Of a stretch of 64,000 bases of DNA, positions 774 to 64,000 are shown piece by piece. This DNA comes from Gracilaria domingensis (taxonomy: Eukaryota; Rhodophyta; Florideophyceae; Gracilariales; Gracilariaceae): positions 17,416 through 81,415 of the forward strand of contig VCMS01000249.1 of NCBI GenBank assembly GCA_022539475.1. Reading direction: 5' to 3'. A model generated the notes under the pieces. That model was given only the letters and a program-made list of their open reading frames with translations, did no database searches and was not told the DNA's origin. The first letter of the stretch is position 1. The number at the start of each line of letters is the position of its first letter. Position numbers and translations under genes: made by a program.

Positions 774-1961
774 TCAAAGAGCACTGGAGTTTAAGTCGCG
801 ACGGCGTCGATGAAGTTGGACATCTAGATCGCATTCGTCTTGGAGGTGGATAGTGTAGTCGGCGGGCTCTGGGTGACCATTGGTGTCAGTACGCGAGGGA
901 GGTGGAACAGTAACGCCACCGCCATTTTCTATAATGAAATTATGTAGTTTGCAGCATGTAACCACAACGAGAGTGTTCATTTGGAGAGTACAGCGCAGGG
1001 ATCGCCAAAGTATTCCCCATCTCCCAACCAATATACCAAATGCTTGCTCGATTAATATTCTTGCCGAAATTTGCCAATAGTTGAAACAGTCCTGCGCAAC
1101 AGACAGCCGTCTACCGGACCACGGACAAAGAAGCCTCTCCGAACAAGTGTACGCGTCATCAGCCGCTATCCAGTAACCTGGCTCTAGACTTTCAGTATTT
1201 CGAGATAATAATCGAGAAAGAGAACTCATTGCATAAGCCGTTGAGTCATGCGTAGATCCCGGTGAAACACAAGAGACAAACGTAAACCTGTAATATGAGT
1301 CACACATTCCTTGTAGGTTCAAGGTAAAGAATCCTTTTCGGTTGTAATATGTAGAAGAGTTAGCAACCTCAGAAGCCGACGGTTCGCAGATCTTCACAGG
1401 CAAGCCGTCCATTGCACCACAACAACGAGAGAATGGACTGGTTCCTTCTCGTGTGAACCTTTCTGAAACTTCTTGTAACCACGATATATTGGAATAAGGG
1501 AAGGTAATTTACAAGTTTTCTTTCAAGGAATGGACCGTTTCGTGAACGTGATGGTAGAAAGTAGAAGTAGATAGGTTGTGTGATAGACATATATCCAGAT
1601 ACGATCCCCCCGCTAACCAACGCAATTTCATAGAAAGCTTCAAGTAAATACTATGCCTGTAATCTTGCTCGTTCTTTCCGTAGTTAAATCCGATTATAGA
1701 TATATAGACAAGACGGAGAAAAAGAGGAAACGGCCTTCTGTATAGACGTCGAAAGAATTTTTCAGGCATACCGTTTATGATGGAACGAAATGTGACTATC
1801 GGGCGGTCAATGTTTTTGGAACATCGGCTTTCGAAAAGCTTGATGTGTCCGTGCCACACTGCAGCCAGAACGATAAAAAGATTTTCGGTTGATATCCTTC
1901 GTGAACGGTGCACTGCTGGGGCAGAAGCTAGTATGCGTCGACGTTGAAGTGGAGGATGCAT
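774..1961 (-). pseudogene. PIF/Harbinger transposase with one in-frame stop
   Basis: This is a HARBI1-like nuclease of the PIF/Harbinger DNA transposon superfamily (DDE_Tnp_4 type). Two long ORFs, 1961-1509 and 1412-774, are in the same frame. The stretch between them (1508-1413) is also open, so the only interruption is a TAA at 1509-1511. The N-terminal half has the helix-turn-helix-like region (GGSYLDICLSHNLSTSTFY). After the stop come the first catalytic Asp (GAMDG), the YYNRKGF motif, the GSTHDS motif, the second Asp (AADDAY) and the Glu in IEQAFG, then a WGILWR block. All three DDE residues are therefore present. The element was either recently silenced by one mutation or the stop is an error. 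I could not identify terminal inverted repeats. The frame may begin with a non-ATG codon, so the exact start is uncertain. Confidence 0.85.
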
Positions 1962-1963
1962 GA

Positions 1964-2344
1964 TTGATCTTTTCTGACTTTGATTATTTGTCTTGGATGA
2001 TTTGTGTCATCACTGAAGAAGGTATTGGTGGGGTTTTGCTCTTTCTGAGCTTAAAAAGGGTGAGATTGGCGTTGGTTGTTGTTGCATTCTGTCTGTTTAT
2101 TGCAGGGTTTAACGAGCTTATTGAGCTCACTTTCTGGAGGCATGATGAGCTGCACTTTTCTCTCGTAAGGCTTAAAATTCTATCTATGTTGACAGTGTTT
2201 ATGACATTCCAGTTTTGTTACCGAACCCGGGCTTTTATTAAACCCTTGGATATGAACTCGCATTGCCCAAGTCCACGCGCATTGTACGAGTACGAGGCTG
2301 AGCACGAGGGTTCCATGCATATTTGGTGTTGCCATTTGGAATGA
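1964..2344 (+). CDS. Hypothetical membrane-associated small protein
   Basis: An open frame starts 3 bp from the divergent PIF transposase gene. The first codon is TTG; the first ATG is at about 1997, giving roughly 115 codons. The sequence has two hydrophobic stretches (near VLLFLSLKRVRLALVVVAFC and a weaker one around LSMLTVFMTFQFCY) and a polar tail. It matches no family I recognise. It could be a chance ORF in the 5' flank of the transposon. Confidence 0.25.
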   Translation: MIFSDFDYLSWMICVITEEGIGGVLLFLSLKRVRLALVVVAFCLFIAGFNELIELTFWRHDELHFSLVRLKILSMLTVFMTFQFCYRTRAFIKPLDMNSHCPSPRALYEYEAEHEGSMHIWCCHLE

Positions 2345-3700
2345 CGCCAGCAATTCCATTTTTTACATATTTTGATTTTCATATTTTTTAAATATCGTTT
2401 GGAACGGCCCTGAGCAGTTACTTGTTGTGCTTGTACGCAAGCGTGTCCGTCAAACCAGGTTTTGATTGTATATCAGCGTCATGATTAATAACACACTTCC
2501 CCATCAATTGCATACATGATCAAATCTATAGATTTGAGGACGGGAATTCAAACAATATGGAAAACTCTAACTTCAATATCTTTTGTCGAAACTGGAGGCC
2601 TGCTTCCACCCTCCGCGAGATATTTACACAGCGCGTATTGATCTCGAAATTCCTTTGCATCCTCAGCTTGCAGCTTGTGGGAACACAAAAAACCACTAGG
2701 CCACATGTCCCGTGTGTTTACAGTGGGCAGTCTGCGGCTGTGTGACGTATATGTACTCCCGCACAGTTGACCCTTGTCTGATACTTTGATTCACTTTAAT
2801 ATTTCGCTTGAACCAGATTTTGGCGGTATAAGAACTTTTAGTCCCAAAAGGGTTAATTTACATACGGAAAGCTTTCAGATTTGAGTCGAGTAATAGTACG
2901 CTTGCTATTGCTTCCGAAAAGGGCTAGTTTACATTTCTCGAGTTTAGAAGCAAACAGTGTTTGCTTCTAAACTCGAGATATGCAAACTCTTCAATGTCGC
3001 GGTTTTCAGTAATATAGGATTATTCAGGGATTTGACACTGTATTACAAATCGCATAGACTACATGCAAATGTTTAGGGGTCATTCTTCGCGTAATAGGTA
3101 TTGGTTATGGCACAGGACCGTGCAGAGAGACAGTGAACCGAGTTGGATGTTTGCTCAAGCAAGGCGAGGCCAAGCATTGAGCTGGGGTCCACAATAACGC
3201 TCGGGTGTAATAAGCTCTTGGCCGGACAGGACTTCATGCTCAATGGATTCAGTAGACGTCTCGTCCTAGAGTATGATAACATTGTAAATGAGTTGAGACA
3301 CACTACGAATTTGCTCAGTAGTTTTCATAAACATACCAGTTCTTCGAATATGATTTCAAGGTTATTGCTCTTACCTTTCTAACTAGAACCAGGAACCTGA
3401 TTTATTGGAAATTCGCGGCTGTGACTTCTTGCTTCCAAAGGGCATGCCATCATGTATGACAGCAAGCAGTCACGACCAACAGCGATTCTGCATCACAGCC
3501 GTCAACACCTTCTAGCGGAATCTCCTAGTTTCCTTTTTACCCAACCCCCCTCTCCACGGCACAGTTTACATCTTCTAGATGCTGCTGGAGTTTGACTTCG
3601 TTGTTTTCAAGCTTTTCTCAGTGCCTTTGACTGTTTGAAATCTGTTCGAACTATGTTTGAATGCTTGTATGAGTTTTTGAATTTATGTTTTGTATTTGTG
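2345..3700. other. Intergenic, no recognisable gene
   Basis: AT-rich sequence with short ORFs only (for example 3143-3382 plus, 79 codons, no known family). The one clear structure is the perfect hairpin at 2936-2978, listed separately. Confidence 0.4.
2936..2978. repeat. Perfect 20-bp hairpin
   Basis: Two perfectly complementary 20-bp arms (starting tctcgagtttagaag) are separated by 3 nt (agt). The stem contains an XhoI-type palindrome at its base. There is no T-run next to it, so it is not an obvious terminator. It resembles several other near-perfect foldbacks in this window. Confidence 0.9.
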
Positions 3701-5080: not shown

Positions 5081-5798
5081 TGTCAGTAAGCCTTTTTCTG
5101 ACTCAACTTTTCCTTACGTCTCGCTACCGATGAGTCTTCCTCTGTGCAGTAGCCTTGTCATGGAACTCGCGAGCTGTAAGTCACAGCTATTGAAGATCCT
5201 TTGGAACTGTTCGGCACCAGTAGCTTGGCACGGTTCTTACCTTCGGAACCCGAGATATAGTACTGCACTGTTACTTGTTTTGCAAAAACCGTGGACAGTC
5301 CTCCGTGGCGCGCTTGTGCTCGGCCGCGTTTCGCACGTTCCGCTCGCCCATGCCCACTAGCTCTGCGCACCGCTTGCTCGCGTCTATAGCTAAGCTAAAT
5401 ACCGTACGCGCCCGTTGCTAACACCCTAAAGGGCAGTCTACGCGTGGTTCGAGAAATTTACGGGGATTTACAATAGGCTAGCAAACTTAGCGAAAACTTG
5501 CAAAGCTTTCGCTATTCACTAGAATCTAGTGCAAAGCTTTCGCTATTTACTAGAATCTAGTGATCCAGGCACTACGGCTCAAGCGTTACGCTGCACACGC
5601 GTAACGGCTGAGCCAAAAGATCTCAGATCTCGCCGAGACAGCGAGATCGTAGGCGTCACGCACAGAAAACAAATGCGGTCGAATTGAGATCTTGACGTTA
5701 TACGTCAATCCGTATGCGACGGTAATCGCTTGTGGTAGATACGAACCGCCGGCGCACAGCATTGCTCGTAAACATGTAGTAGCCTAGAAGGCTACGCT
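5081..5798. other. Palindrome-rich 5' flank of PIF transposase
   Basis: Decayed sequence to about 5400, then a dense cluster of direct and inverted repeats: a 31-bp tandem duplication at 5500-5561, a hairpin at 5576-5614, gatctcgc/gcgagatc at 5626-5648, and ttgacgt/acgtcaa at 5692-5708. Several lie within 300 bp of the transposase start. PIF/Harbinger elements carry subterminal repeats bound by their own proteins, which is one explanation. Confidence 0.6.
5500..5561. repeat. 31-bp tandem duplication with internal palindrome
   Basis: Two copies of a 31-bp unit (gcaaagctttcgctatt...) differ at one base. Each unit ends in the palindrome actagaatctagt. It sits 240 bp upstream of the PIF transposase start and could be a protein-binding site. 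Confidence 0.9.
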
Positions 5799-7199
5799 AT
5801 GACAAGGATTCACAAACGAACTCGCAAACTCACCAATCGCGTCCTCGCAATATGTGGAGCACTCACGGCTCTCATGGCAACAACCAAGACCCCTCCCACA
5901 CGAGTGGAACGCGAAAGGCGGTGCTTTGCACAGGTTAATCAGAGACTGAGCGATTCAGAGTTTCGGTCTTGCTACCGTCTTTGTCGCCATACATTTTTCC
6001 TGCTTTTGGCGCAATTGCGTCCGTTTCTCTCACAATATAATGAAGAGGAGTATGAATCCGAAATACAAGCGCACCTCAGTGGTTCGGCAATTGAGGCCGC
6101 AACAAAACTAGAAATCTTTCTCAGATTCATGGCTGGCGCGAGCTACTGGGATCTTATGCTAACATATGGAATCGGAAGGTCAACATGTTATTCAATCTTT
6201 CGCGGATTTTTGACTATTTGCGACTCGTACCTAACGTTTGAAGGTCTGCCTCCAAAAGAAGATATAGCGGCCTACAAACGAAGGGCAATAGATTTTGCCA
6301 TCTCGCGACGAAACTTGAACTTACTTCTGAACTTACTTCCTGGCTGTGTTGGTGCCTTGGATGGCACTCTAATTTTCTTGCAAAAGCCTTCGAAAGAGCT
6401 TAGCAACCAACAGTTCTACACGAGAAAAGGTGGTTTCGGGGTGCCTGTGCAGGCTCTGGTGGATGCTAAGTACCGTTTTATTGCTTCTTCGGCTGTCTGT
6501 GTTGGTTCTACCGTTGATGCTGTTGCGTTCGCTCACTCTAATATTGGTAGGTTTCTTCAAGAAGAAGGTCTACCAGCAGGTTTTTGGATTGCCGGTGATG
6601 AGGCCTATAGATGCACAATGTTCATTGTGACGCCAATACCAAGGAGTATGGCTCATCGTTATCAAGATGGTTTTAATTTCTGTCTGTCATCGCATCGGGT
6701 GCATGTTGAGCAAGCGTTTGGACGCTTGAAAAACCGCTGGGGAATACTGTGGAGACCACTGAAGTTTGAACTGCAGACGTCTTTAATCATTGTTAATACA
6801 GCAATGAGGCTGGAAAACTTGTGCATTAACTCTGGTGATGCTGCGCAAATGAATGCTTCAGCTGGTGTAGAATTCGAACATGAAGCTCTTCAATGGCTTC
6901 ATATCTGGCTGGCGTGGTGGGAGAACGGTTTTGATTACTCATTCGATCCGCCGAATGAGTTTGCGGGGTTTGAATCAGATGAAGGTACTCTGCTTAGTTC
7001 AACAACAACTTGTTCTATTGGTTTCGATGATAATTACTCGCTTACGCGTATACGGTTATGTATGATAACCGAGAAGTATCGGTTTAAGCGACCAATGTTC
7101 AATTACCAGGGTCATGAGTACAACTCTGGTCTCAAGAGCCGCGAGACCTACGTCTGTAAACAGAGAAGTAAAAAAAATATCGCCTTCAGCATCCAATAG
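5799..7199 (+). CDS. PIF/Harbinger (HARBI1-like) transposase, intact
   Basis: A 466-residue DDE nuclease of the PIF/Harbinger superfamily with an ATG start. The N-terminal third contains a predicted helix-turn-helix (MAGASYWDLMLTYGIGRSTC, residues 111-130). The catalytic core follows: Asp188 in GALDGT, the YTRKGGF motif, Asp240 in GSTVDA, Asp267 in GDEAY and Glu304 in VEQAFGRLKNRWGILW. The DDE triad is thus complete, and the length suits an active or recently active transposase. Its C-terminal 100 residues (acidic, then basic) match nothing I know. The gene ends only 113 bp before the IST1 start codon on the same strand, leaving little room for a transposon terminus, so either the right end is very short or the gene has been captured by the host. 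No second Myb/SANT ORF is seen next to it. Confidence 0.92.
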   Translation: MTRIHKRTRKLTNRVLAICGALTALMATTKTPPTRVERERRCFAQVNQRLSDSEFRSCYRLCRHTFFLLLAQLRPFLSQYNEEEYESEIQAHLSGSAIEAATKLEIFLRFMAGASYWDLMLTYGIGRSTCYSIFRGFLTICDSYLTFEGLPPKEDIAAYKRRAIDFAISRRNLNLLLNLLPGCVGALDGTLIFLQKPSKELSNQQFYTRKGGFGVPVQALVDAKYRFIASSAVCVGSTVDAVAFAHSNIGRFLQEEGLPAGFWIAGDEAYRCTMFIVTPIPRSMAHRYQDGFNFCLSSHRVHVEQAFGRLKNRWGILWRPLKFELQTSLIIVNTAMRLENLCINSGDAAQMNASAGVEFEHEALQWLHIWLAWWENGFDYSFDPPNEFAGFESDEGTLLSSTTTCSIGFDDNYSLTRIRLCMITEKYRFKRPMFNYQGHEYNSGLKSRETYVCKQRSKKNIAFSIQ

Positions 7200-7312
7200 G
7201 AGAAAGCTACTTCTGCTCTGCGGATTTGTGGTGACTACCTTGTCGGAAAACGTTGCAGCGTTCCGGAGTCTTCCCCTCGGTATAGCAATTTTCATTCTGC
7301 GTGTTTGTCAAC

Positions 7313-8629
7313 ATGGGGGTTTTCCGCCGCAGAAAGTCACGCCAGGTTACCAACGAGCCTCTTCCGGAATGGGAGGACAAACGCTGGCGTTCTCATCTTC
7401 GAGCTTGCGCACTTGGTGTTGAACACCACTGCAACTTGTATGTTGAAGTGATCAACAACGAAAGAAGGGAAGCTGACACATACTTCATAGACAACGATGA
7501 GGCGCGAGCAAGAAGTCACGCGGAGTCCTCTTTTGAGAACGAACGCATCATTTCCGATCTTGGCGCATTAGCCCCGATTACGAACGCACTTCATCAAAGA
7601 CCAGAGCCGCTGGCTGGTTATAGTTCTATTGCGACAATCCCGGACCCTGCTCGTTCCGACATCATAACCATCATCTACGCTGCTAGCCGCTTGCAAATGT
7701 CATACCTTACGGACATGGTCGAGTTTCTTCGTGAACAGTTCGGATCCTACCATATTGAGCAAATTCAGCAAGGCAGTGTTGATTTATTCCTGCATGTCAA
7801 TCCCACCGTTCGTGACTCGTTCTCCACCATGATGCCATCTCGTGAGGACGCAAATACTGAGATAGCCTCGGCAGTGAAGGAATATTGTGTTGTTTCCGTA
7901 ATTCCAGTCCCCGTTCATCCCGTTACACAAAACTCAACCTCAGTTTCAAGCAGGGTCCCACCCCCACCATTTCCAGCTTCGGCGCAGAGCAATGTAGCCA
8001 ACGTGCCACTGCCGCCGCCAATGCGAAAGTCGAAAGATGCAATGCGCAAATCTCACACGACACCGTTATCTGGTCATTCTTCTGAAATTGGGCTAACGTC
8101 ACCCGAGCTTCATAACCAACAGGGTGTACCGCGACATGAGCATAATCTTAAGACCCCGTCTCCCCCGCGTCCAGAACGGAATAGAATGTTCGCCGCTCGT
8201 ACGGAAACGCCACAACAGAATACGGAGCATACGCTTCGGAATCAGGAACAAATGGAAAAGCCGTTTACTTCTGCTGCTGACGATATCGGAATACCGACGG
8301 GACGTTCTTGGTTCACGGACCAGGTTGAAGCACCCAAGAACGCGGAACAGCGCGCAGTGTCGATATTGCAACCAAGGGAACTAGTTCAAATGAACAATAC
8401 TCCTGCATCAGTGAAAAAGACTCAGGATGTTTCGTCTCAGAAGTCTTGTTCTTTGCGCGAAGACAATTTGAAGCCAGATCAAAGTACACCGGATCACTTG
8501 AAGAATTTTCAGGATTCAGATGAGATGCTGTTCAGGAGATATGGACAACTGAAGGAAGTTTGGGAACTTGTTGCAGTTTCACAAGCAAGTGATACACAGC
8601 CACGGCAAGTTCTGTGGACTTCAACTTGA
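7313..8629 (+). CDS. IST1-domain protein (ESCRT-III/Vps4 regulator)
   Basis: A 438-residue intact protein. The first ATG (7313) gives MGVFRRRKSRQ, a basic start with Gly2 that could be N-myristoylated; a GTG four codons upstream is less likely. Residues 20-190 fit the IST1 helical domain: a long helix rich in Arg/Asn (VEVINNERREAD...), then SHAESSFENERIISDLGAL, then the IIYAASRLQMSYLTDMVEFLREQFG segment, ending with the region around EIASAVKEYCV. The family binds Vps4 and ESCRT-III and acts in multivesicular-body sorting and abscission. The remaining 250 residues are disordered and rich in Pro, Ser and Gln, with PPPPF and PPPMR runs, as in many algal and plant IST1-like proteins. It has no stops or shifts, unlike many neighbours. 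It lies 113 bp after the PIF transposase. Confidence 0.85.
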   Translation: MGVFRRRKSRQVTNEPLPEWEDKRWRSHLRACALGVEHHCNLYVEVINNERREADTYFIDNDEARARSHAESSFENERIISDLGALAPITNALHQRPEPLAGYSSIATIPDPARSDIITIIYAASRLQMSYLTDMVEFLREQFGSYHIEQIQQGSVDLFLHVNPTVRDSFSTMMPSREDANTEIASAVKEYCVVSVIPVPVHPVTQNSTSVSSRVPPPPFPASAQSNVANVPLPPPMRKSKDAMRKSHTTPLSGHSSEIGLTSPELHNQQGVPRHEHNLKTPSPPRPERNRMFAARTETPQQNTEHTLRNQEQMEKPFTSAADDIGIPTGRSWFTDQVEAPKNAEQRAVSILQPRELVQMNNTPASVKKTQDVSSQKSCSLREDNLKPDQSTPDHLKNFQDSDEMLFRRYGQLKEVWELVAVSQASDTQPRQVLWTST

Positions 8630-9089
8630 GATGGACATTTTGACGGACTTTCCAATAAATGCAATTGGTTATCATGTATTACTGATGCTTGACTTTCGGA
8701 ATACGCGGTTGATATGTTGATATCACTTGCAATTGCGATAGCCAGGCACATGTACCATGCGGTAGGATAGAGTGATCAGCAGTTGACGATAGAAACGTGG
8801 AGCCTTATCGCTTGTGTGTGCCGGATAAGAATCTTTGTTCACTGCGTTCAACAGAGTGTGGTGCGACGGTACCGGAGATGGGCTATGGCGTTGCCTGCGG
8901 CGCAGTACATCACAAAGAGTCTGAGATATTATACAACGCAGCTGCAATGGAAGACAAAGAAACATGGCTTGTTGATAATGCACCTCATACCCAATGCTTT
9001 AACACGAAACCAGACGATTTCCGGATCAAAGTAACAGACTTCTTGCGTGCTCATCTTTCAGGTGCTTTACGGCATATACTAGGAGTACG
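8630..9089. other. Spacer; possible 5' part of the radical SAM gene
   Basis: Plus-strand ORFs of 83 and 100 codons overlap here in different frames. The second (8797-9099) is open up to the radical SAM start and might be a decayed upstream part of that gene, but I cannot align it to the cobalamin-binding-like N-terminal half that the family normally has. Confidence 0.3.
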
Positions 9090-9806
9090 ATGGCCCTGAA
9101 CCGGGTAACGAACTGCCAAAGTAAGTACAAGCTTGATAACAATGCCATCACAGGGGGCCACGTGCTGAAGCTGAGATATTGTGAAGCCAAAGTCCAGAAA
9201 CGAAACTCTTTGCCACAACCATGGAGAGCAACTCAACTTGTTCCGCAGACTGATCCAGTTCATGACCGCCTCACTGTCGAAATTCGTCGCGGATGTACTC
9301 GCGGGTGCCGCTTCTGTCTTTCGGGCATGGTGCAGCGGCCTGCTCGAGACGTAAATCCAGATGATGTGATTAGGACAGTGAAGGAAGGCGTGAAAGCCAC
9401 AGGATATGACGAGTTTTCATTGCTCTCATTGAGCTGTTCAGATTGGCTTAGCTTACCCAGCGTCGAGATTCAATTGAAGAACGAGCTTCGTGAGGATGAA
9501 GAGTCGATATCACTTTCACTTGGATCGCAACGTGTTGATAGGTTTGATGAGCACCTAGCCCATGTGCTTGATGGAAGCCGAAAATCTGGACTGACATTTG
9601 CGCCAGAGACCGGAACTCAACGAATACGAGATGTCATCAACAAAGGCTTGACCAACGAAGACTTGCTGAAAGGTGTTAAGCTCGCTTATGACTCAGGTTA
9701 TCATAACGTGAAACTCTACTTCATGATCAATCTTCCATCTGAAACAGACGATGATGTTATGGGCATAGCAGACAGCAGCGCCAAAAGAACCAATCATGAA
9801 ATCTAA
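9090..9806 (+). pseudogene. Radical SAM protein fragment (TIGR03960-like)
   Basis: A 238-codon frame carries the radical SAM cluster motif CTRGCRFC (Cys69, Cys73, Cys76) preceded by VHDRLTVEIRRG. It continues through TGYDEFSLLSLS, a SLSLGSQRVD strand, SGLTFAPETGTQRIRDVINKGLT and YHNVKLYFMINLPSETDDDV. This order is characteristic of the bacterial and plastid-lineage 'radical SAM family uncharacterized protein' (TIGR03960), known from bacteria, with algal homologues plausible. The family is about twice this length: the N-terminal half and everything after the GLP(S/T)ETD strand are missing, and the frame ends in unrelated residues and a stop. It is therefore a fragment, or a gene with missed exons. 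The role of the family is not established. It converges on the SNARE gene, about 80 bp apart. Confidence 0.8.
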
Positions 9807-9887
9807 GCGACAAATGCCCACTCGTCCAGAGGGAACAATCACCTCTTCCAAAACGTGGTCTTCAGATATGCGAGCAAGAGACACACA

Positions 9888-10286
9888 TCAAAATATGAAA
9901 TGAATAACTGCTTCGAACAGAAGTATGATGAGAAGTACAAGTGACCATAGTACGAGACAGAAGGAGCGAATGTTTTACGGCGAAACTGAAAGTCCTTCAG
10001 TTCCACGATCTGTTCTGACGACATGATCAGACGCTCTTTCCATGCCATGAGAAATTTCGTCGAGCGTGACATTCCGTGAATCAAATTCGTTGTACATCAG
10101 CCCAGCTATTCGTTTTACGGACTCCACGCCTGTAGCAAGTCCTTGGAGGTCTTTATCTTGTGTGACAAGAGCAAGCCGTTGTTGTTCCAGCACTTGCTCC
10201 GCAGAAAGCGCTGCTTCATTTAAACTGCCATAAGCGGATGCATTGGATGCAGGCTTTCGGTCACCAAGGAGTTCTTCGCGTGCTGA
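9888..10286 (-). pseudogene. Qc-type SNARE (SYP5/syntaxin-8-like), stop before membrane anchor
   Basis: In one minus-strand frame I read a SNARE motif (LEQQRLALVTQDKDLQGL..., then VKRIAGLMYNEFDSRNVTLDEI) followed by a TAA at 9975-9977. The same frame then runs into a typical C-terminal membrane anchor (SFCLVLWSLVLLIILLFEAV) ending with TGA at 9888-9890. The motif resembles plant SYP5 and syntaxin-8 proteins of the endosomal/vacuolar pathway. By alignment with SNAP-25 and SYP5, the zero-layer position that should be Gln is Arg (DSRN). The 5' end is not seen: a pyrimidine-rich tract ending ctcag lies just upstream of about 10286 and may be a 3' splice site, so an earlier exon may exist. No AG occurs between the TAA and the anchor, so splicing cannot easily remove the stop. 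It could be a pseudogene, a sequence error or a readthrough case. Confidence 0.72.
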
Positions 10287-10576
10287 GAAGGACGGGGGCG
10301 CGGACCGGACGTGGACGACGCAGCGGCGGCGGACGGGCGGCTGTGCGTAGGCGAGAGAGACGAGCAGACGAATTGTAGGTGTGTATCGGAAGGGGAGGGA
10401 CGAAGGCTTGAACGCGAGCCATGACGGACAGCGCGACTGAGCGCGACTGAACACGACGGGGTGGGCCCGTGAAGGGCAGACGGACGGGAAGACCGAACGG
10501 AAGCGCACAAGATCAAACGCTCGCTCGGCAAAAGATGCAAAAATGAAAAGATACTGACGGTACCCAAAGGTACACT

Positions 10577-10663
10577 GCTGCGCGCCGCGCGCGCCGAAAT
10601 CAAAACGCTTCGCTCTGTGTACCAGAGCAAAGCGTTTTGATTTCGGCGCGCGCGGCGCGCAGC
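10577..10663. repeat. 40-bp near-perfect foldback upstream of uL18 gene
   Basis: Arms at 10577-10616 and 10624-10663 pair over 40 bp with a single mismatch and a 7-nt loop. The outer half is extremely GC-rich (gcgcgccgcgcgcgcc) and the inner half AT-richer. It lies 56 bp upstream of the uL18 start codon and within the region between that gene and the SNARE gene, so it may fold in the 5' UTR or mark an inverted-duplication breakpoint. Confidence 0.92.
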
Positions 10664-10718
10664 GCGGCGCGACGGCGAGGCGGCGGCGGCGAGCGCGCGA
10701 GCGAACGAGACGTGGAGC

Positions 10719-11054
10719 ATGGCGCGCGTGAGGGTGCGGCGGCCAGACGCCGACACGCTGCGACTGCTGCTGCGGCTGACCAGCCGGCACGTGCACGCGC
10801 AGCTGGTGGACAAGCATGCCGGACGCATCGTCGTCGCCGCGCACACTACGGATCCGGCGGTGCGCGACATGATTGACGCGGCCGCGCCGCGTGGCAGCTA
10901 CGTCACTACGTCCGTGCCGGCGGCCGGCGTGGTCGGCAGGGTGTTTGCGCAGCGCGCCGTGCGCATGGGTATCTCGGACTCCGACGTGTACTGGCCGCGG
11001 TCTGGCCGATATCACGGCAAGATCAAGGCGACCAAGCTAAGGCAGATCTCATAA
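10719..11054 (+). CDS. Ribosomal protein uL18, mitochondrial/bacterial type
   Basis: A 111-residue basic protein starting at ATG 10719. It follows the L18p fold: RLLLRLTSRHVHAQLVDKHAGRIVVAAHTTDP corresponds to the 5S-rRNA-binding strand-loop-strand ('...RSNKHIYAQVID...' type). AGVVGRVFAQRAVRMGISDVDVYWPR-like sequence fits the conserved helix and strand, and RYHGKIKA the C-terminal 'GRY.GRVKAL' signature. The size matches mitochondrial uL18m proteins, which have a short or no cleavable presequence. It would bind 5S rRNA or support the central protuberance of the organelle ribosome. Codon usage is strongly GC-biased at the 5' end compared with neighbours. The frame is intact. A 40-bp hairpin lies just upstream. 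Confidence 0.78.
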   Translation: MARVRVRRPDADTLRLLLRLTSRHVHAQLVDKHAGRIVVAAHTTDPAVRDMIDAAAPRGSYVTTSVPAAGVVGRVFAQRAVRMGISDSDVYWPRSGRYHGKIKATKLRQIS

Positions 11055-52871: not shown

Positions 52872-52919
52872 GACTGCTCAGCGGTTGGTCATAATTATCA
52901 TCGCTAGACGACCCGAATT

Positions 52920-53313: not shown

Positions 53314-53797
53314 CCTAGCAGACGGGATGTGGTAGTTGGGAACTTTCAAATAGCACCGCTCAGAGCTACACGTAGCCGAGGGAGCAGTATGAGGGCGACG
53401 CGTCACTCAGGTACGCACCTCAGGAATGTACACGTATATGTTTGGTCATGCTTCACTCGCTGTGCCTCTGCATTGGATCCCCTGCATTGGACAGGGGACT
53501 GAAAACGCCATTTTGGTGATGGCGTCGGCGGTTACAGCCAAACGGGGCAAAAACAGTAAAAATAAAGTTTGCTCTCGTAGAGTACCAGTCCAATTGGACG
53601 AAGAAGCACTAGCCAAATATAAGCTTACGTAGACAGAGTGCGGCAGAAGCCAAACAACAAGAGCACGAACACAAGAAGAGAAGAGGGGTACCAAACGATA
53701 GACGAAAAGATAAGGAAGAACAAACAAGGATGATATATGTAATGAGATATGAATAGAAATGTGTCACAACTGAACAATGAAAAGAGAAACATGTGCT

Positions 53798-54228
53798 CTA
53801 AAAGATAGTATTGTTCTTCTTTCTAAGTGTCGCACGATGACGGCGGCTCCTGTAGTGGACGCGCAGATCGTGGGCTTCAGAGAACCGGATGTCGCAAGCC
53901 TTGCAGTGGATGTCCAGCTCGGTGTAGTTTGCACTGCGCAAAGCTCTGCGATGGCGACGGCCGGCTTGATGGACTTCAAGCTGACGCTCGCTCTGGACCT
54001 TGATGTCACAGACACGACAGCGTTTGAAGATTCGCTTACGCGGCGGAGGGTTACGACGGCGCTTCTCCTTCTGAGTGGCTACGCGAAAGATGTGGCGCTC
54101 GCGCGGCCCGTCAAGAGGCTGCACAGCCGACTTCTTTATCTGCCGAACGGGATCGGGGACTTCTTCCAGACGCTCGTCCGGGTCAACCACGGACGAGTAC
54201 TGGCTGGATGAGACGAAAGACGTTGGCA
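53798..54228 (-). CDS. Protein with two U1/matrin-type C2H2 zinc fingers
   Basis: Two fingers of the C-x2-C-x12-H-x5-H form lie near the C-terminus: CRVCDIKVQSERQLEVHQ with H...RRH, and CKACDIRFSEAHDLRVHY with RSRRH. These are typical of RNA-binding or dsRNA-binding (zf-met/JAZ) proteins. Upstream is a basic region (QKEKRRRNPPPRKRIFKR). The frame extends to 54292 but begins with TTG. A good donor (g|gtaagt, GT at 54296-54297) and an acceptor (AG at 54229-54230) suggest a 69-bp intron, leaving this as exon 2 with the first exon not identified. It ends with a clean stop. Confidence 0.72.
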
Positions 54229-55758
54229 CTTGATGTGAAACAAACAAGAAGTCAGTAGTCACACAAAATGCCAAAAGAGCAGCTGAGAACAACTTACCCT
54301 TGAACGATTGCCTCAGGGCCGTAGGTTAATGGTAACCTTACGCCGTATCACACAGTGTGTCTAGCAACAACAGGTGCAAAGCAACACTATGTGAGGAACG
54401 GAATCGCAACGCGAAAGGACCAGCGAAACCAGAGTCCAAGGCCGACAAGAGAAGCAAGGGAACAGATGCGGACAGGGAAGGCCCGCACAACGACGAAGGA
54501 ACGAAGGGAAGCAACAACAAAGACAACCGTGGCGCGTAGAAACGGGAAACGATGATAACGAGAACAACGACAACAAAGAGAATCACCGCGGAGAAGAGGG
54601 AGAGACGGGGAACCAAAAAGAACGGGCTTCGGGAAAGAGAGGCATGCCCGCACAAGGCTAACCCAACGGTACGGTAGTGCAGACGCTTTGCCGACTCACA
54701 CGAGACGCGCCCAGAGGAGGGGCTGTGTGAGTAGCAGGGAACGTAGTGGGCGGTGAGACCAAGCCGCCAAAGGGGGAGAGTGAGAGAGGTTGAGGATGGG
54801 GAGAAGAAGGTTGAGACGACAAAAGGGGAAAGAGATGAGGAGTGGAGGGTGGGAAGAGGTCGTCGAAAGGGAAGTGGTCTGGCCGGAGTTGAGTCGGAGG
54901 CGACTGCTCCGGCCCTTTTATGCACAACCGCGCCGTCGATTACAGGCGGGAATCGACGGTACGGTTGGCTTGGCCAATGGCTGCGTTGTATCTACCGTAC
55001 TAGCCTATAAGAGGCGTAGGTGGTAGATACTCTAAGCGCATATGCCGCCACAGGGGGCGCCTATGCAACGCAGTACACAGCGTAAAATACACGTGTATTT
55101 GCGCAAGCGCAGACGCCTCCCGTTGGTGACCACGAATTTGGCAATTGACAGCCGATGAGGTCGGGAGGTCAGCGTCGGAGCGCTCCCTGCCACTTAATTA
55201 GACAATCTCATGTCGCCCTGCTTGTAGTGCGGCGCCTCCTGGCCCCACGCAATGTAGATTCTGCGTAGAAAACTAACTAAATCTAAGATAGGATTAACTA
55301 CAATAAAGCATTTTTAAACTATATTCTGTATTCCCGCTGCGTTGGGCACAACGCAGCAGCGTGACTCGTACACTTGTCACGTGTACCGTTAGAGGGGCCA
55401 CAGGGACCGCGCATTGGAGACTCGAATTTGCCTCGAACCGTCACACTCGATTATCGACAAACTGCTGCAATGTAAATATCTATGTACGAAGGTACGTGTA
55501 GCTACTATGACTGTCAACTCATTCTTCTTTCTTGGCTACTCGGTTTGTCTAAGGCACCTTCATTGCGACACCAACACTGCTAGTCTAACAGCTAGGCGTT
55601 CATACTTACTCGCAAGCTCAGTCTTCCGTCACAACAAAAGTCACACGAGTACCGCAATCATTCACATTGCATCTCGCATGCCCGAAAACCGATCATTCTG
55701 TTGATCCGCAGTGATTCTTGGCCCTCCGATTGAGCTTCGCGCTTGTTCTCGTCCCACC
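54229..55758. other. Spacer with possible intron and C/T-biased ORFs
   Basis: 54229-54297 looks like an intron of the zinc-finger gene. 54338-54925 has long minus-strand Ser/Leu/Pro ORFs produced by base bias. 54925-55758 shows no gene. Confidence 0.4.
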
Positions 55759-57361
55759 ATGGCCACTTTCGTTACAATTGGGGTACTGTTAGTATCTACC
55801 GCTCCGTTGTTTGCGATGTGGCTCGTCACATTGCAGCGTCGATGCCACTTGCTTGTCCTCTCCATTCTCTCCGCGTTCACATGGTGCATTGCCATGATGC
55901 TAATTTCTGCGATTTGGCTCTCAATTCCTCCTCTCAAGAATATCTATCCCTATGTTCTGTTACTGGCTGTCACTGGGGAATGCGGGTAATCACTCGCACA
56001 ATGAATTTTAACGTACTTGCTGTTTGCATATCCAAGTATGATGATCCATATATTAGAAAAGAAAACGTGCTGTAATGTAATTAGTTGCGCTCTTTTGATG
56101 ACAGTTATTTTGAAAACCTGCTTACAGTTTTCACAATTTGACTACAAGTGATTTCAGTATTTTGGCTACCTTACGGGTCTATTCAAGATCATACAGTACT
56201 TTTTGTATGCTCGCGAATGCCCAAAAGATAGCGCGAAGTGTCCGTTTGTCACTAAATGGAAGTCCATATATCGTGGCACTTCGTGAGTACTGACCTCTGC
56301 TATTTTGATAGTTGTTAGACATTTACGTGAGAAGTATGTAGAATAGCTAGATTTCTGTAATGGTTTTTTCGTTTCTTTTTTCCAAAAGTTTGAACAGGTG
56401 GTATATACCGCAAATATGCAATATATCGCGATCTTTCATCGCAAAAAGTAAATGATACGCATAAACATATTGTGTAATGACTTAAATAATCTATTCTACG
56501 TTATAATATCTTCTGTGTAAAGCATCAAATGTGTTTCAAAAGTCTCTAATGTCAATGATACGGCCTCTTCAACTTAAGTAGTATTTGTAAGTTATCAACA
56601 AGATCTTCGAAGATCTTGAATGAGAGCCGAGAACTTACTGCGCGCTGGCATTCTACTGCCAGTCTTGCCAAATTGAAATTGGATCAATGGTGTGTGTTGC
56701 AGCAATGAAAATTCAAATGGAATGAATTCCATCCGATCTTTTGCCAATTTTTGTCTTGGGCTGGTACAGTTCTGAAAAGAAGAAACTTTTTAATTTATTA
56801 AAACCTTTTTCTATTTTTGTCCAACTTCTTCAATGCCCGCATCTCCCTGCCCAAGAGCTGGCTCGGTTTGCTCCCAGCTGCAGTTTTCGAACGGTTCTCA
56901 ATTTTGGCCAAAACGTTCAGGCTTTCATTCGTCCTGGTGTGAAGAACGACTTTCAAACGAGCGTCTCTGTCGGGGCTGGTTTCGGATTCATGTCCCTCGC
57001 TGTCAACTTTTACTTCGTTGTCGCTAGCGAATTGGCAGATGACACCTCTTTATGTATGAACAAATGCGACATTAACTACTTCGTTGCTGGTTCGGGCTTT
57101 GCACTTGCCTTTTACATTCTACATTTCCTTGTAGCCATTACTGTGTGATCGTCTTACTTCAAAGAAAAAGAGTGGCTTCTTAGTGTTTGTGGCTACGCTT
57201 TGCATCTCGTCGCTTCGGAAGCTACTCTCATCAACAGGCGCCAGAATGTTTGCCAATGGGGCTTCATTTTAGTCTGGGTCCTTGTCACTTTAACTTTCTC
57301 TTTCGCTGTCTACCTCACCAAAATCAGATTTCGTACTGCCGCAGAAACAAAAAACACTTAA
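55759..57361 (+). CDS. APH1: APH-1 subunit of γ-secretase, two exons, one in-frame TGA
   Basis: Exon 1 (55759-55985) starts in a strong context (accatgg) and encodes two membrane helices. A GT at 55986 and AG at 56882-56883 give an 898-bp intron that keeps the frame. Exon 2 (56884-57361) continues VSVGAGFGFMSLAVNFYFVV, the conserved GxxxG-type helix, then INYFVAGSGFALAFYILHFL and LLSVCGYALHLVASEATLIN. These carry the two conserved APH-1 histidines (ILH and ALH). The last helix and the basic tail follow. APH-1 is a seven-helix scaffold of γ-secretase together with presenilin, nicastrin and PEN-2. A TGA at 57146-57148 (between AITV and SSYFKEKEW) interrupts exon 2 with no frame change. The exon borders are my prediction. 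Confidence 0.82.
56599..56618. repeat. 20-bp perfect palindrome in APH-1 intron
   Basis: caagatcttcgaagatcttg reads identically on both strands. It lies within the predicted intron, 265 bp before the acceptor. It could be a dimeric protein-binding site. Confidence 0.85.
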
Positions 57362-58198
57362 TTCTGTTTGTATCAGAACATGTTTCTGTCATCCCCGTAT
57401 CTAATTCTGTCCATGCGAACATTCGAGAGCACGCATTAACAAGAAAACTGCGTTGTGTGTCAGTTAATGCAACTCTGGCAAACATGCGCCTCTTCTTAAC
57501 TGTACTTACGGTGCCTCAGAATGACTCTGCAATTTGTAATTGCTTCTTGTACCAATGTACATGCGCTCGAAGGTTGTGTTAATACAAGAAATGTTGCGGA
57601 TTCCACTCTCTCTATGCGAATGGTTTCGCCTAAGTTATGACAGTACTATCGTCATCTTGCTTACCGAGAACATCTTCCCCGACAGCGAACAATGCTTCCA
57701 GATCGGCAAGAAGAGATCCACCGCCAACAGGAGGTGAGGAATACCAAACTCTGTACAAAGATTTGCTGAAAGTGTCACCTGGATCGTGCTTAAGAAGAAA
57801 AACCTGCATCACACCTTCTTCTGACTCCACTGCACGCAGAGAAGCTCGTTGGTTAGGTGACTTTCTTCAGTTACCGCTGTTCGGAAGAATTGATATTCAA
57901 TTACGGCTGTTCGTGTACAACTCTACAAGGAAAAAGGCTGTCTATTTCGGCCAGAACATAGTGTGCGTGGATTCACTTTCGTTGATGCAAGGGAAACTTT
58001 CGGAGTTTAGCTTCCTCTGCTTCTCGTTCTTTATCAACTAAAGACATTTTCGAACTTGAGGTCAAAAGCCTCCTCGGGATCACCGGTTCACCTCGTACAC
58101 GTTGAGCTGCTCTTTCTACGTTACCAAACTCGTCACCTTCCTTTCTGCTAAAGCTTATTACAATCCTTCGTCTTGGAAATACGCCGAGATCTACTCAT
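57362..58198 (+). other. Spacer with an unknown ORF
   Basis: A plus frame at 57637-58041 (134 codons) contains TGGEEYQTLYKDLLKVSPGS and LGDFLQLPLFGRIDIQLRLF, which look protein-like, but I recognise no family. It could be an exon of an unknown gene. Confidence 0.3.
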
Positions 58199-59674
58199 GA
58201 TTTGGAACACAGTGCTTCTACTGGAGTAGCTTTTGGAACCGAAGTGGCAGGATTTGATGAAGAATTGTACGGTTCTTCGCGGCCGCTTCGAAACCGCAAG
58301 GGCTATGTTTCGTCCACAAACCCTTCGGAAATGGAGGCAGATAAGGAATAGAAACATGAACTGGGAGCAGCGTTCTTGACCTTAAAAAAGGCAACAGCTG
58401 CTAGTATCACTGCACCTAAGTATCTCATTGCGGAACCGAAGTGGCGTCAGCGAAGTTGAAGTCGCAGGAGTCATTTAAGCCGTACATGCCAAAGGCAATA
58501 GATGAGCAGCAGAATTCGTATCTCGCTCGAGGTCGAAAACGAGTTCTGTCACCCTTCAGAGCGTAACATGCTGCAAACAGAGCGAAGCAAACGACCGTTG
58601 CGAAGCAGTCGATCTCCGACGTGGAACAACCCAGCGAGAGCGCCGAAGTGCCAGTTAGCTAGAACCGGCCGCCACGACCGAATGTCAATCTTTCGGAGGC
58701 TACTCCTACATCTCGTTCAAAGCGGCGGCGGCGCTGGGATTTAGTTGCAGACACTGCTACAACTGATACAAAAATAATTGCAGAGGGCACGCCCATGCCT
58801 CTGAATGCGACTCCTGTACCAGATAACTTGCCTCCTTTTGTTCCCCAAACTTTGTCGAAACCGACAGTTCTAACCCACTCAAGATGGGATGCCCCAGTAC
58901 CGACATCAACCGCCGCATCCCGTTCTTCGAGATGGGATGCCACACCTGCCAGCATGTCAATATCGCAAGTGACAAAGAAATCGCGATGGGATGAAACACC
59001 ATTAGTACAAGCCGCTGCGGTTGCGGGAGCTACACCATCGGCTCGAGCAGGATCAGCCGCGCTAAGCACGCCCTTGCTCCAAAGTGGCTCTCCGGACGCT
59101 GTTAACTTATCTAGATGGCAGGGAGATGTTGAAATGCGAAATCGGCGTCTAACTGCTGAAGAGGTAGATGGACTACTATTATCTGCAGGGTACACTATTT
59201 GTGAACCTCCGGACTCATATAAACCTGTAGAAACTCCAGCTCGATTACTGATAAAGACCTCTGCAGTTCCTCAGACATCTTTTTTACAGTCTTCCGACTG
59301 AAAATGGATTCGCTGGAGAAACACTGAGGATTCCAGTGGAAATGTCAGATGCACTCAAGAGTATTGATCTGAAGCCCGAGAATTATAAGAATTTTGCGAA
59401 GGTGCTTGATAAGAACTCTGAAGATGAGGTGCCTTCTGAGGAACAAGTTGAGCGAAAGGACATGCGGCTGCTCTTGAAATTTAAGAATAATACGGCTAAC
59501 GTCAGAAAGGTAGCTATGCGACAAATATCCGAGAAGGCTCGCGATTTCGGTGCCAAACCTCTTCTGAAACAGATTTTGCCACTTCTAATGTCACCGACCT
59601 TGGAACACCAGGAGAGGCATCTGTATGTGAAAGTGATCGATCGCATACTTTACAGGTTACTGTGGAGACACTGA
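58199..59674 (+). pseudogene. SF3B1: SF3B1 (U2 snRNP SF3b155) N-terminal part, broken
   Basis: Matches the N-terminus of splicing factor SF3B1 in order: FDEELYGSSRPL...GYVSST (family YDQEIYGGS...GYVTSI), IDEQQNSYLARGRKRVLSP, then RRRRWDLVADTATTD, three SRWD(A/E)(T/P) repeats, EEVDGLLLSAGYTICEPPDSY-type linker, and [20 protein letters not shown] with [23 protein letters not shown]. In-frame stops lie at 58349-58351 (TAG), 58564-58566 (TAA) and 58660-58662 (TAG). The frame changes near 58450 and 59297 (one extra g). Homology ends at about 59660 (aca|gttac could be a splice donor), and a Copia LTR starts at 59692. The HEAT-repeat body (over 900 residues) is absent. It may be a pseudogene fragment or a gene disrupted by the retroelement. 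Confidence 0.85.
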
Positions 59675-59691
59675 AACGTCTGTGAAGCGCA

Positions 59692-59991
59692 TGTTGCTCA
59701 AGGACGTTGCAGTCTGGTTAAACTGCAACGTCCGCATGGAGCAACATGGTGCAAGACGTTGCACTGCACACTGGTGCAGTGGTTGGCAGTGACAAGTCAG
59801 CAGAGCGTTCCAAACGGGCTGCTCTCTAATTAGAAGAAGAGCGAGCACGGAAAATACAAACATTAGTTGTAGTCTGTGACTTAGTTGCTGGAAGCTAGTG
59901 AAAGATAAAAGGGTAGCTCGAACAAGTAAACAGCGGATCGAGGAGTCGATCCAACTCCTTGTGAGACCAATCTACGTAACCCCACACAACA
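59692..59991 (+). repeat. 5' LTR of right-hand Copia element
   Basis: Runs from tgttgctcaagg to cccacacaaca. Its first 50 bp fold on themselves: tgttgctc and ggacgttgcagt pair with actgcaacgtcc and gagcaaca. A short unique region and a ggatcgaggagtcgatcc hairpin follow. Confidence 0.85.
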
Positions 59992-60004
59992 GGTTATCGG
60001 GCTT
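59992..60004 (+). other. Primer binding site of right-hand Copia element
   Basis: ggttatcgggctt directly follows the LTR. It resembles the initiator-Met half-tRNA primer site ggttatgggccc but has a C after ggttat and diverges afterwards, so either the site has mutated or another tRNA fragment is used. Confidence 0.6.
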
Positions 60005-60143
60005 ACTACGAACTACTGTCGCGTGTTGCGGTTCTTTTTTTTTCTTTCTCTAGTGCGTTTGAGGCTACCGCATCGTCATGGACGACACCTTTGTCGACGT
60101 TGCGAAGCTTCGCATTCCGCTTTTAAAGGCGCATAACTAATTC

Positions 60144-61124
60144 ATGCGGTCGCACAAAATGGAGCTGGTGTTGCGCTCCGAAGGCGTGTGGCCTCTGGTC
60201 ACTGGCGCTGATCGTAAACCGGAGGACGAAGACGCTGTAGAGAAGTTCGAAAAAAAGAAGGATATTGCTCTGACCTGCATACTCCTCTCCGTACATGAAT
60301 CCTGTGTGGCATCGGTGATGACAATACGGGACCCGGCAAAGATATGGAAGACGCTAAAGTCGAACTTCGAAATGGTATCGCAGGCGAGCATAGATGCGCT
60401 ACTGGAACAGTATCAGGATATGAAGATGACAACGGATGAACGTGTGCTTGACTACACCAATCGACTTACAGTCATCGAGATGAAGCTGAATAGTATCGGA
60501 CACACTCTGTCTGATGCCGAAAGGCTTAGAGCGATCCTGAGGGGCCTCACAAACGACTTTGATGTGACACCTGAAGTCATAAATCAGACTGGAACTACTC
60601 TGAAGGACGCCGTACCGCGCTTGATCGCCCGTGAGGGGCAGTTGTTGAAGGACAGTCGGTCCTCTAGATCCACTTCGGGACATGTGAGAGCACTACAGGC
60701 GCGTACGAAGAAGACTTCGGAAGACCGGAAATGCTTCTTTTGTAACAAGAAAGGTCACATCAAGAAGAACTGCTGGGACAATCCTCGTAGTAAGAGTTAC
60801 AAAGGAAAGAAGAACGGCCATGAAGAGAAGCATTCGGATTGTGGAAATGGAAACGATGGTGTGGCCGGGATCGTCGCTGCACTGGTAGTGGTTGCTTTTG
60901 AAGATGAAGAGGCACCAGTGATGGAAACGCTTGATGTATCTGACGCGAATGGATGTCGAGAGAACATCGTATTGAAGGAAGCCGGATACATTGCAAATCA
61001 CCGAGTTCATGAGGGACAGGAGTTCTCATGGTACTTGGACTCAGGTGCATCGAAACACATGATAAAAGCCAGAGCTACTTCGTTCATGGCGTCCATTCCT
61101 CCACGAAGAAGACCGTATCAGTAG
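60144..61124 (+). pseudogene. Copia gag and start of protease
   Basis: From ATG 60144. UBN2-type gag (KMELVLRSEGVWPLV; KIWKTLKSNFE; LDYTNRLTVIEMKLNSIG), then the zinc knuckle CFFCNKKGHIKKNC, and the protease start FSWYLDSGASKHM. A frame change near 61065 moves the protease on into the next ORF. Confidence 0.9.
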
Positions 61125-62599
61125 GAAACGGTGCAAAGCTACGAGTGAATGGACAGGGTAGTGTAGAATGTTGGATTCGTGCAACAGAAGGTCAACGCGA
61201 GAAGATTGTTCTTAACGACGTGCTCTACGTGCCGGAGCTTATCTGTAATCTGCTGTCCGTGAGCTCTATTCGTCGTCACGGATACATGACGGGGTTCATG
61301 TCTGACAATGAAGGATCAGGGATCACCGTAATTGTGGACCAGAGTAGCCTGAGGATTCTGACAATAGGGAAGGAACTCGATGAAGGACTGTACGAAATCA
61401 AGCTTGCTCCATCTGACAACCGAGAAATTAACGTTTTGATTGCGCAGGACGGAGAAAACTATGCGCTAACCTGGCATAGACGTCTCGGCCACGCAAGCTT
61501 AGACTACATTCGGAAGACTCTGCGAATCATCAACGGCGTACGACAGGTACCGATACACGACTTCGGACACTGCGAATCGTGTGCGGAAGGCAAAGCCACT
61601 CGAGCACCGCGGAAGCCAAGCGATGCATCGAAGAAGAACATGGAGGTTCTTGACCTTGTCCACTCAGACGTCATGGGACCCATGAATGTTGAGAGCTTGT
61701 CAAAGGCGAAGTACACGGTGACGATTTATGACGACAAGACTCGTCTGTCAGCAGTGCGGTTCACACGAACACGGGCGCAAGTAGGAGACCGAATCAAGGA
61801 CATGATCACCTTGTTTGAGACTCAGTCTGGACCAGAGCTGAAGCGGTTCAGGTTTGACAACGCTGGCGAGTATTTGTCCGGTGCAATGCAGAACTGGTTG
61901 AACAGCAAAGAAGTGTTCATGGAACCGAGTCCGGCATACAGCCCTGAGTCCAACGGAAAGGCGGAGAGACTCAATCGTACACTGAATAAAAAGGCTCGAA
62001 CGATGTTACGGACGATTGAAGGGACACCACGCAGTCGCCAACTGTGAGCAGAAGCCGTAAAAACAGCGAACTACATCCGGAACCGCACATTCGTTCGGCG
62101 CGAAGGGGAGCCTCACATGACTCAGATAGAGGCTTTCACTGGTATCAAGCCTAATCTAGCGCACTTTTGAACCTTCGGGGCACAATGTTATGTACACATC
62201 CCGAGGGAGCGCCGTTAACGTAGTGCAAAGTACGATAAGCGTGCCATCAAGGGGATCCTTGTCGGGTATGAGAGGGGCAAGTGCTACAGTGTGTACATTC
62301 CGAACGAGAACAAAGTGATTGTGTCTCAAGATGTCACATTCAATGAGAAGATGACTGGATGGAAGCCTGAATCTGAGAGTGAATCTTTCCCTGGACCAGA
62401 GAAAGTCTACCTCAGTGATTTAGACCACTGTGAAGAGGATCATGAAGTGCAGATGGATGTGAAGCAAGAAGATATGGCTGGAAAGGAAGCAAAGAAGCAG
62501 GACGATCAGAAGCAGGAAGATTTAGTGGATGATGAAGTGAAGGAAGAAGAAGAGTTTGTGGACGCACAAGTGGAGTATTCCTACACCCGGAGCTTGTGA
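61065..62599 (+). pseudogene. Copia protease end and integrase; one frame, three stops
   Basis: YFVHGVHSSTKKTVSVGNGA is the protease; ICNLLSVSSIRRHGY its end. LTWHRRLGHASLDYI ... CESCAEGKATRAP is the zinc region. HSDVMGPM, RFDNAGEYLS and YSPESNGKAERLN carry the integrase D, D and E. The same frame continues through TGA 62045-62047, TGA at about 62168 and TAA at about 62216 into RAIKGILVGYERGKCY and an acidic linker. The first TGA stands where the family has the Trp of LWAEAV. Confidence 0.9.
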
Positions 62600-64000
62600 C
62601 TCACTACCCAGATGAGCCAAGAAGGTCCAGTCGATCCCGCCAAGCACCCAATCGATACACACCAGACGCCACCATGGCATTACTCACCACTAGGGCCTTG
62701 GGGAACCCTGTGGGCGACAGTCCACTGACTGTTCGTGAAGCTCTGCAGGGAAACGACGCCGAAAACTGGCGAGCATCCATTTGTGAGGAGATGGATCATA
62801 TGGACCAGAGATCTGTATGGGAACTAGTTCCGCCTCCAGAGAACTGCCGACCTATCAGTAGCAGCTGGATTTTTCTCAAGAAGCGATATGAGACAGGCCA
62901 GATAGAGCGATACCGTGCACGATTGGTAGCTCGAGGCTTCTCACAGCATTCTGGACTAGATTATGAGGAACTGTTTCCCTTGTTGTGAAGTATGGTACAG
63001 TTAGAGCCGTACTATTGCACATGGTGGCCAATGATCTTGATGCTATTCAGTTTGATGTTAGAACTGCGTTCCTGTATGGTGATCTCACTGAAGACCTTTA
63101 CATGAAACAACCGGAAGGCTTCATAAATGAGCAATGTATGTAAGGATCACGTGTACAAGCTTAAGAAGGCCATTCATGGCCTCAAGAAGGCATTGCGCGC
63201 ATAGAGGGCCACGTTTAAGGCTATCATGAAAAAGATTGGATGCACTGTGTCTGAGAACGACCCTGGTCTCTTCCTTTATAACAGTGGTGAGGGACGGGTG
63301 ACCATTCTTGTGTACGTGGATGACGGTATCATTGTCGGCGGAGGCAGAGACATGTTGCTAGAATTTGTGAAGAAATTACAAGCCCATGTCGACCTTAGGG
63401 TCTACGATGAGCCACGAAAGTTTCTCGGGATGCTCATCGAACGTAGCGCTGACAGAAAGTCTTTCCGTCTACACAATCAACCGATGATAGAGCGCCTGGC
63501 TGCCCAGTTTCATGTACAGGATGGTGCCAAAGTTACCGTTACTCTCCAGAACACAACCTTGACAAAGGCGTCAGATGTTAATGAAGATGTTGAAAATCTC
63601 CCTTACAGAGAACTGGTAGGCTCTTTGCTGCCTCTGGCTAACACTGTGCGTCCTGACATCGCTTTTTCCGTCTCGTATCTCTCGCGCTTCATGCAGCAGT
63701 ACTCGCGCGAACACTAGAGTGCGGCTATGAATGTTCTCAAGTACCTTAGCACCACGAAAGATGCTAAGATTGTGTATCGTGCTGATGATACTGTTGGACT
63801 TGAAGAAACTTTAGATGCAGACTTTGCTGGCGATAGAGAGGACAGGAAGTCTACTAGTGGCTTCATCTTTAAGTATGCTGGAGGACCTATTTCGTGGAGA
63901 AGCAAGAAGCAGACTATTGTAGCGCAGTCTACTCTAGAAGCGGAATATGTTGCAATGTCCTTCGCTGTTCGAGAGGGAGTGTGGCTACGACGATTATTTA
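62596..64000 (+). pseudogene. Copia reverse transcriptase and RNase H, cut by window edge
   Basis: RT starts in 62596-62988 (SICEEMDHMDQRSVWELVPP ... YRARLVARGFSQHSGLDYEE), shifts frame to AIQFDVRTAFLYGDL, and continues in 63226-63717 (ILVYVDDGIIVG with YVDD; RPDIAFSVSYLSRFM). A TAG at 63715-63717 stands where most Copia have Trp (EHW.A). RNase H follows in the same frame (DADFAGDREDRKSTSGFIF; STLEAEYVAMS). Confidence 0.9.

Follow-up and report, generated by a model that had tools for sequence, protein, structure and literature searches.

In-frame stop codons in a repeat-rich contig of the red alga Gracilaria domingensis most plausibly reflect the ordinary decay of duplicate and mobile sequence, which includes a Harbinger family bearing host-like gene segments

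Introduction

Isolated in-frame stop codons interrupt many otherwise continuous reading frames in a stretch of 64,000 nucleotides from the red alga Gracilaria domingensis, namely positions 17416-81415 of contig C249 (VCMS01000249.1) in the assembly GCA_022539475.1, which comprises 77.9 Mb in 680 contigs. This whole stretch is called the window, and positions refer to it unless another contig is named by its number. The stops appear to have arisen by ordinary neutral nonsense mutation in copies that no longer function and whose relatives are found elsewhere in the genome, an interpretation to which, from comparison of the sequences, a probability of about 0.93 is assigned. It is supported by the sense codons that relatives have at all 13 of the stops that were compared, by the presence of frameshifts, and by a missense share that is neutral. 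The host genes APH-1 and SF3B1 are present as decayed duplicates with parents on other contigs, and none of the stop-bearing copies would be expressed as protein. The most interesting result is a family of PIF/Harbinger transposons bearing cargo. The stops themselves are of little importance, but they hold a caution, i.e., that a reading made without homologues sees stops and misses frameshifts.

Stop Codons and Their Counterparts in Relatives

The earlier note on this DNA, made from the letters alone, listed 16 stops, and its reading of the letters is for the most part correct. Its eight stops in single genes were verified in position and in frame, and the three that it reported for SF3B1 were located at 58349, 58564, and 58660. 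It also mentioned two stops in the gag and three in the pol of a Gypsy element: these frames do hold stops (38961, 39444, and 40350 in gag; 42298, 43432, and 44110 in one pol frame and 41525, 41534, and 41756 in another), although the note did not specify which ones were meant. Thirteen of the 16 were compared with sibling copies or parent genes in the same genome, and in every case at least one relative has a sense codon. The stop at 1509-1511 is CAA in C133; that at 9975-9977 is TAC in the two siblings read (C36 and C106); that at 11638-11640, a TGA seen only in the window copy, is TGG both in the C4 host gene and in all six further element copies examined; those at 13215-13217 and 13377-13379 are TCA and TGG, respectively, in C40; that at 17599-17601 is GAA in C9, with C221 having the same stop; that at 21882-21884 is a tryptophan codon in C31; and that at 57146-57148 corresponds to TGG in the C44 gene for APH-1 and in one C372 copy, the second C372 copy sharing the stop. 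The three SF3B1 stops correspond to codons for glutamine, glutamate, and glycine in C63, and each of the two Gypsy pol stops examined is a sense codon in five of five siblings. Only five of the 13 (17599, 57146, and the three in SF3B1) are seen again in another copy, and four of the listed stops (9975, 11638, 13215, and 13377) lie within one Harbinger element at 5430-14564. Introns were considered as a source of stops and were ruled out wherever relatives hold the frame with a sense codon at that place.

Elsewhere in the genome, 126 of the 133 listed matches to the Pkinase profile are stop-free and seven contain stops, with open frames of up to 1706 amino acids, whereas at least one stop is present in 37 of the 150 listed matches to DDE_Tnp_4, the profile of PIF/Harbinger transposases. 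Both counts were taken from the listed rows, which cover the best-scored candidates only and are not independent, and the kinase list may include introns that were read through. In-frame stops are not a property of the genes of this genome.

The earlier note had also raised base-call errors, and an imperfectly polished assembly could yield stops by base-call or assembly error. Some of the frameshifts are of a single base, and a duplicated segment is split over contig ends, where C249 and the start of C372 are 100% identical over 3468 bases, such that the end of C249 and this part of C372 may represent a single locus, assembled twice. However, the stops accompany a divergence between copies of 2–15%, in keeping with an old origin; a second copy on C372, which differs elsewhere from the copy in the window, has the same three SF3B1 stops; and the kinase domains of the same assembly are mostly clean. 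Error is therefore very unlikely as a general cause, though possible at any single site.

Neutral Decay of the APH-1 and SF3B1 Duplicates

A decayed duplicate of the APH-1 locus lies at 52102-57872 (forward strand) and contains the stop at 57146-57148 as well as two insertions, at each of which the coordinates of the parent locus on C44 overlap by 5–6 bases, as expected of target duplications. It is followed at 57871-59660 (forward strand) by the 5′ part of a decayed duplicate of SF3B1, which has its parent on C63, holds the three stops and two 1-base insertions or deletions (indels), and continues on C372. Inside the SF3B1 copy is a Copia element at 59661-64000 (forward strand), with 332-bp end repeats that are 97.9% identical, the second being at C372:15484-15815. 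The parent frame of APH-1 is open over 260 amino acids, and that of SF3B1 consists of frames of 580 and 706 amino acids. The duplicate includes the flanking DNA of the parent locus, and the APH-1/SF3B1 segment is found twice on C372, 33.9 kb apart. A repeated unit of 33.9 kb, which holds this duplicate, is seen in C372:1-46823 and in window 47069-64000.

In the APH-1 and SF3B1 copies (the window together with its continuation on C372), there are eight nonsense mutations, where random placement of the substitutions would give 12.1. The missense share is 0.68–0.80, the expected share being 0.70–0.73 (P from 0.20 to 0.86 in the five rows used; rows for the second C372 copy were computed and kept out of the sum, as that copy repeats the same history). 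The missense share is thus what random placement would produce, and constraint on these copies is not evident.

Frameshifts Versus Stops

Frameshifts had been described in the earlier note as rarer in the non-transposon genes, and a special bias against them was suspected. The apparent rarity arises for the most part because the reading was made without homologues. Comparison with relatives reveals a 1-base deletion in the TVP38 copy, two 1-base indels in SF3B1, a 2-base insertion at 21603 in the gene bearing the stop at 21882, and a 1-base deletion at 7109 in the transposase at 5799-7199. Nor does the division into transposon and non-transposon genes hold, in that TVP38, the supposed SNARE gene, and the gene with stops at 13215 and 13377 are all inside one Harbinger transposon. 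When the APH-1 and SF3B1 copies are aligned to their true homologues, the eight stops are matched by eight frameshifting indels (seven on a strict count, one indel being doubtful through its position at the junction of two parent frames), and equal rates of the two were what the earlier note had named as speaking against a bias.

A tally was made for the window over eight coding stretches that have relatives, excluding Gypsy and the stop at 9975, the frame of which is only putatively coding. It comprises ten nonsense mutations (SF3B1 three, the second Harbinger ORF [open reading frame] two, and one each in APH-1, TVP38, the first PIF copy, the RING gene, and the 21882 gene; the second transposase has none) and at least five frameshifts (SF3B1 two, and one each in TVP38, the second transposase, and the 21882 gene). 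Taking 0.040 nonsense mutations per coding substitution and 0.029 indels of frameshift size per substitution, the share of ten stops in 15 is near the neutral expectation (P = 0.33), and with only four frameshifts counted (ten in 14) P is 0.22. A special bias finds no support here, and the deficit of frameshifts mostly stems from reading without homologues. The lineage also looks poor in indels, as judged from its alignments: pooling ten alignments gives 925 substitutions and 36 gap runs, of which 27 have a frameshift size, and the matched stretch of up to 1.76 kb is unchanged in net length in 23 of 39 Gypsy siblings (not counting the row of the window itself or one second piece).

The copies resemble duplicated (non-processed) pseudogenes in that their parents have open frames elsewhere, their nonsense and frameshift lesions are close to neutral levels, and no constraint was detected. 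They are unlike duplicated pseudogenes in their low share of indels, and it is because of this low share that the stops stand out.

Several points weigh against interpreting the stops as neutral decay. The tally for the window still tilts towards stops, though within chance, and the tallied stretches were picked mostly via their stops. The direction of two sets of length differences is unproven: differences of 5 and 1 bases between the RING copy and C221 were assigned to C221, since the window frame is continuous, and the 2-base difference in the 21882 gene was taken to have arisen in the window copy. On C63, the SF3B1 parent itself has a frame change near the middle. The comparison with siblings covered two of the five listed Gypsy stops and none of the Copia tryptophan positions cited in the earlier note, and the basis throughout is assembled sequence alone, not reads, RNA, or peptides.

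The Mutation Spectrum

Cytosine deamination, whether driven by methylation or resembling repeat-induced point mutation (RIP), is a still less probable source of the stops than assembly error. The hallmark of RIP is a strong excess of C>T/G>A changes, in CpA context, in repeats. The earlier note had proposed RIP-like decay and a count of such changes, which was made here on 925 differences in ten alignments, with direction read from relative to window (for sibling pairs, this direction is not established). There are 510 transitions, comprising 285 C>T/G>A and 225 T>C/A>G. This inequality, which is clearest in SF3B1 (52 versus 22) and in TVP38 (14 versus 5), favours deamination, as do two APH-1 alignments in which C>T in CpG exceeds the CpG share (22 of 59 versus 29% and 9 of 21 versus 25%) and a rise in TpA/ApT of about 0.10 in all but one of the four APH-1/SF3B1 alignments. 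However, C>T/G>A changes make up only 31% of the differences; 68 of the 285 are in CpG (CpG share about 26%) and 62 in CpA (about 29%), so there is no pooled excess in either context; and the two directions of transition are balanced within one, or reversed, in five of the ten alignments. The stops at 9975, 13215, and 17599 and two of those in SF3B1 involve transversions, and 38 of the 63 changes found only in the window copy of the Harbinger element are transitions. The RIP signature is absent from the pooled spectrum and the CpA context of the ten alignments, and RIP-like decay, as an account of the stops, is not borne out.

Readthrough or reassignment of stop codons, organism-wide or in these genes, is the least probable explanation of all: frames do run on past the stops, and four of the five TGA codons among the eight single-gene stops are where relatives have tryptophan, but each stop replaces several residues (TGA: tryptophan and serine; TAA: glutamine, tyrosine, and glutamate; TAG: glutamine and glycine), which contradicts recoding. 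The sense codons in relatives, the largely stop-free kinase matches, the recurrence of only a few of the compared stops in another copy, and the evolution of the APH-1 and SF3B1 copies without detected constraint also speak against it.

A Harbinger Family with Host-Like Gene Segments

The second PIF/Harbinger element of the window, at 5430-14564 (forward strand; 9135 bp), has perfect inverted ends of 10 bp (AGGGCAGTCT) and a TAA target duplication on both sides. Siblings on C40, C80, C106, C232, and C287 have the same left end at different genomic sites; C40, the one sibling read at both ends, likewise has TAA on both sides, the other four having been read at the left only. The transposase ORF (5799-7199, forward strand; 466 amino acids) matches DDE_Tnp_4 (E = 9.5e-29). 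Its C-terminus has been changed by the deletion at 7109, which is found only in the window, and three of the five siblings have an open ORF of 431 amino acids. The changes in the window transposase are five missense and five synonymous, too few for judging selection. At the far end is a second ORF (12645-14318, reverse strand), which has the stops at 13215-13217 and 13377-13379 and no Pfam match at an E value of 0.5; two pieces of it read in C40 have no internal stop. PIF/Harbinger elements contain a second ORF, with a Myb/SANT-like DNA-binding domain.

Between these two ORFs there are several host-like segments. An IST1-like ORF (7301-8629, forward strand; 442 amino acids; PF03398, 34.8 bits against a cut-off of 33.6) and a fragment of a radical SAM gene of the TIGR03960 type (9090-9806, forward strand) are both probable cargo. 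Upstream of the latter, C40, C106, C232, and C287 have 979 bases that are missing from the window, and C80 has about 12.8 kb; an alpha/beta-hydrolase frame lies within the 979 bases of C40, the only copy read. The next frame (9913-10289, reverse strand), which contains the stop at 9975-9977, had been called SNARE-like, an identity without Pfam or convincing PDB support. A truncated stretch resembling ribosomal protein L18 (10746-11029, forward strand; PF00861) is cut by the TVP38 segment, and in C57 the L18 frame continues uninterrupted across the site that TVP38 occupies in the window (301 bases read, with the L18 match slightly below cut-off).

The TVP38 segment (11024-12449, reverse strand) is a copy of a host TVP38/VTT gene, the parent being an open frame of 355 amino acids on C4. 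It is 97.1% identical to that gene, and the flanks differ. The 1-base deletion splits its frame, and all five further element copies examined also have a split frame; the cargo gene, to judge from these copies, was therefore probably dead before the element copies spread.

The copies on C19 and C57 are without the segment that holds the hydrolase and the radical SAM fragment, the flanks of which are joined in C57 with two extra bases, and neither C19 nor C57 was among the matches in a search with the VTT (TVP38) profile. Because these two copies are without some of the segments, stepwise gain of host segments by the element is suggested. Capture, as opposed to loss, is best shown for TVP38, and would apply to the other segments by extension. 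The segments may have entered the element during transposition or repair. Sets of host-like segments differ between the sibling elements on C40, C80, C106, C232, C287, C19, C57, and C36.

The element is like other PIF/Harbinger transposons in its DDE_Tnp_4 transposase, 3-bp target sites (TAA/TTA), short inverted ends, and second ORF at the far end, and is unlike them in its length of 9.1 kb and in the several host-like gene segments that separate its two ORFs. Pack-TYPE transposons of plants, which include Pack-PIF, are non-autonomous by the definition given in the relevant passage of one account (PMC8903248). As described there, they hold captured coding segments between the inverted ends of a terminal-inverted-repeat transposon, the two being multiplied together, and in this the window family is like them; it is unlike them in keeping a transposase frame (the 431 amino acids open in three of five siblings), which may be active. 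On balance, the differing copies incline towards a transposase-bearing PIF/Harbinger family in a red alga that gathers host gene segments stepwise and multiplies them. If so, the family would be a self-moving counterpart of the Pack-TYPE elements, and the differing compositions of its copies would allow the steps of capture by a cut-and-paste transposon to be read directly, in a lineage seemingly little described for capture; for red algae, no account of such capture came up in searches of an open-licence library.

Two further observations concern this element. At C82:157626-169403 there are three tandem copies of the radical SAM segment, 5593 bases apart, in two of which the match beyond a 979-base stretch is present as well; this array is a possible donor locus of the segment. 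A near-perfect inverted repeat of 41 bp with a 5-base loop is located at 10577-10663, where the copies differ by 37–38 bases, and C106 by 113.

Other Features of the Window

The window is part of a repeat-rich contig in which mobile elements and the remains of duplicated sequence are nested, and most of the genes listed in the earlier note are cargo or debris. Its mobile content comprises two PIF/Harbinger elements, one Gypsy element, and several Copia pieces. The first PIF/Harbinger copy (546-2414, reverse strand), which has a DDE_Tnp_4 transposase with the stop at 1509-1511, is 95.6% identical over the stretch to its sibling on C133, and the Gypsy element is a decayed long terminal repeat retrotransposon at 38415-44112 (forward strand). 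A copy of a RING gene (16900-18100, reverse strand) contains the stop at 17599-17601 and has relatives on C221 (93%) and C9 (83%), both with frameshifts. The gene copy with the stop at 21882-21884 lies at 21413-22700 (reverse strand), its 2-base insertion at 21603 being relative to C31, where there is an open frame of 347 amino acids. These two genes recur together with similar spacing, in window 16900-22700, C221:31723-36704, and C9:283270-288828, and may be parts of one larger duplicated or mobile unit.

Phycobilisome linker genes (PF00427) are found on nuclear contigs and on C680, which is taken to be the plastid genome and has a frame of 878 amino acids bearing three linker domains; their presence marks the organism as a red alga. 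Minisatellite arrays occur in the window at 22852-24171, with units of about 90, 178, and 227 bases.

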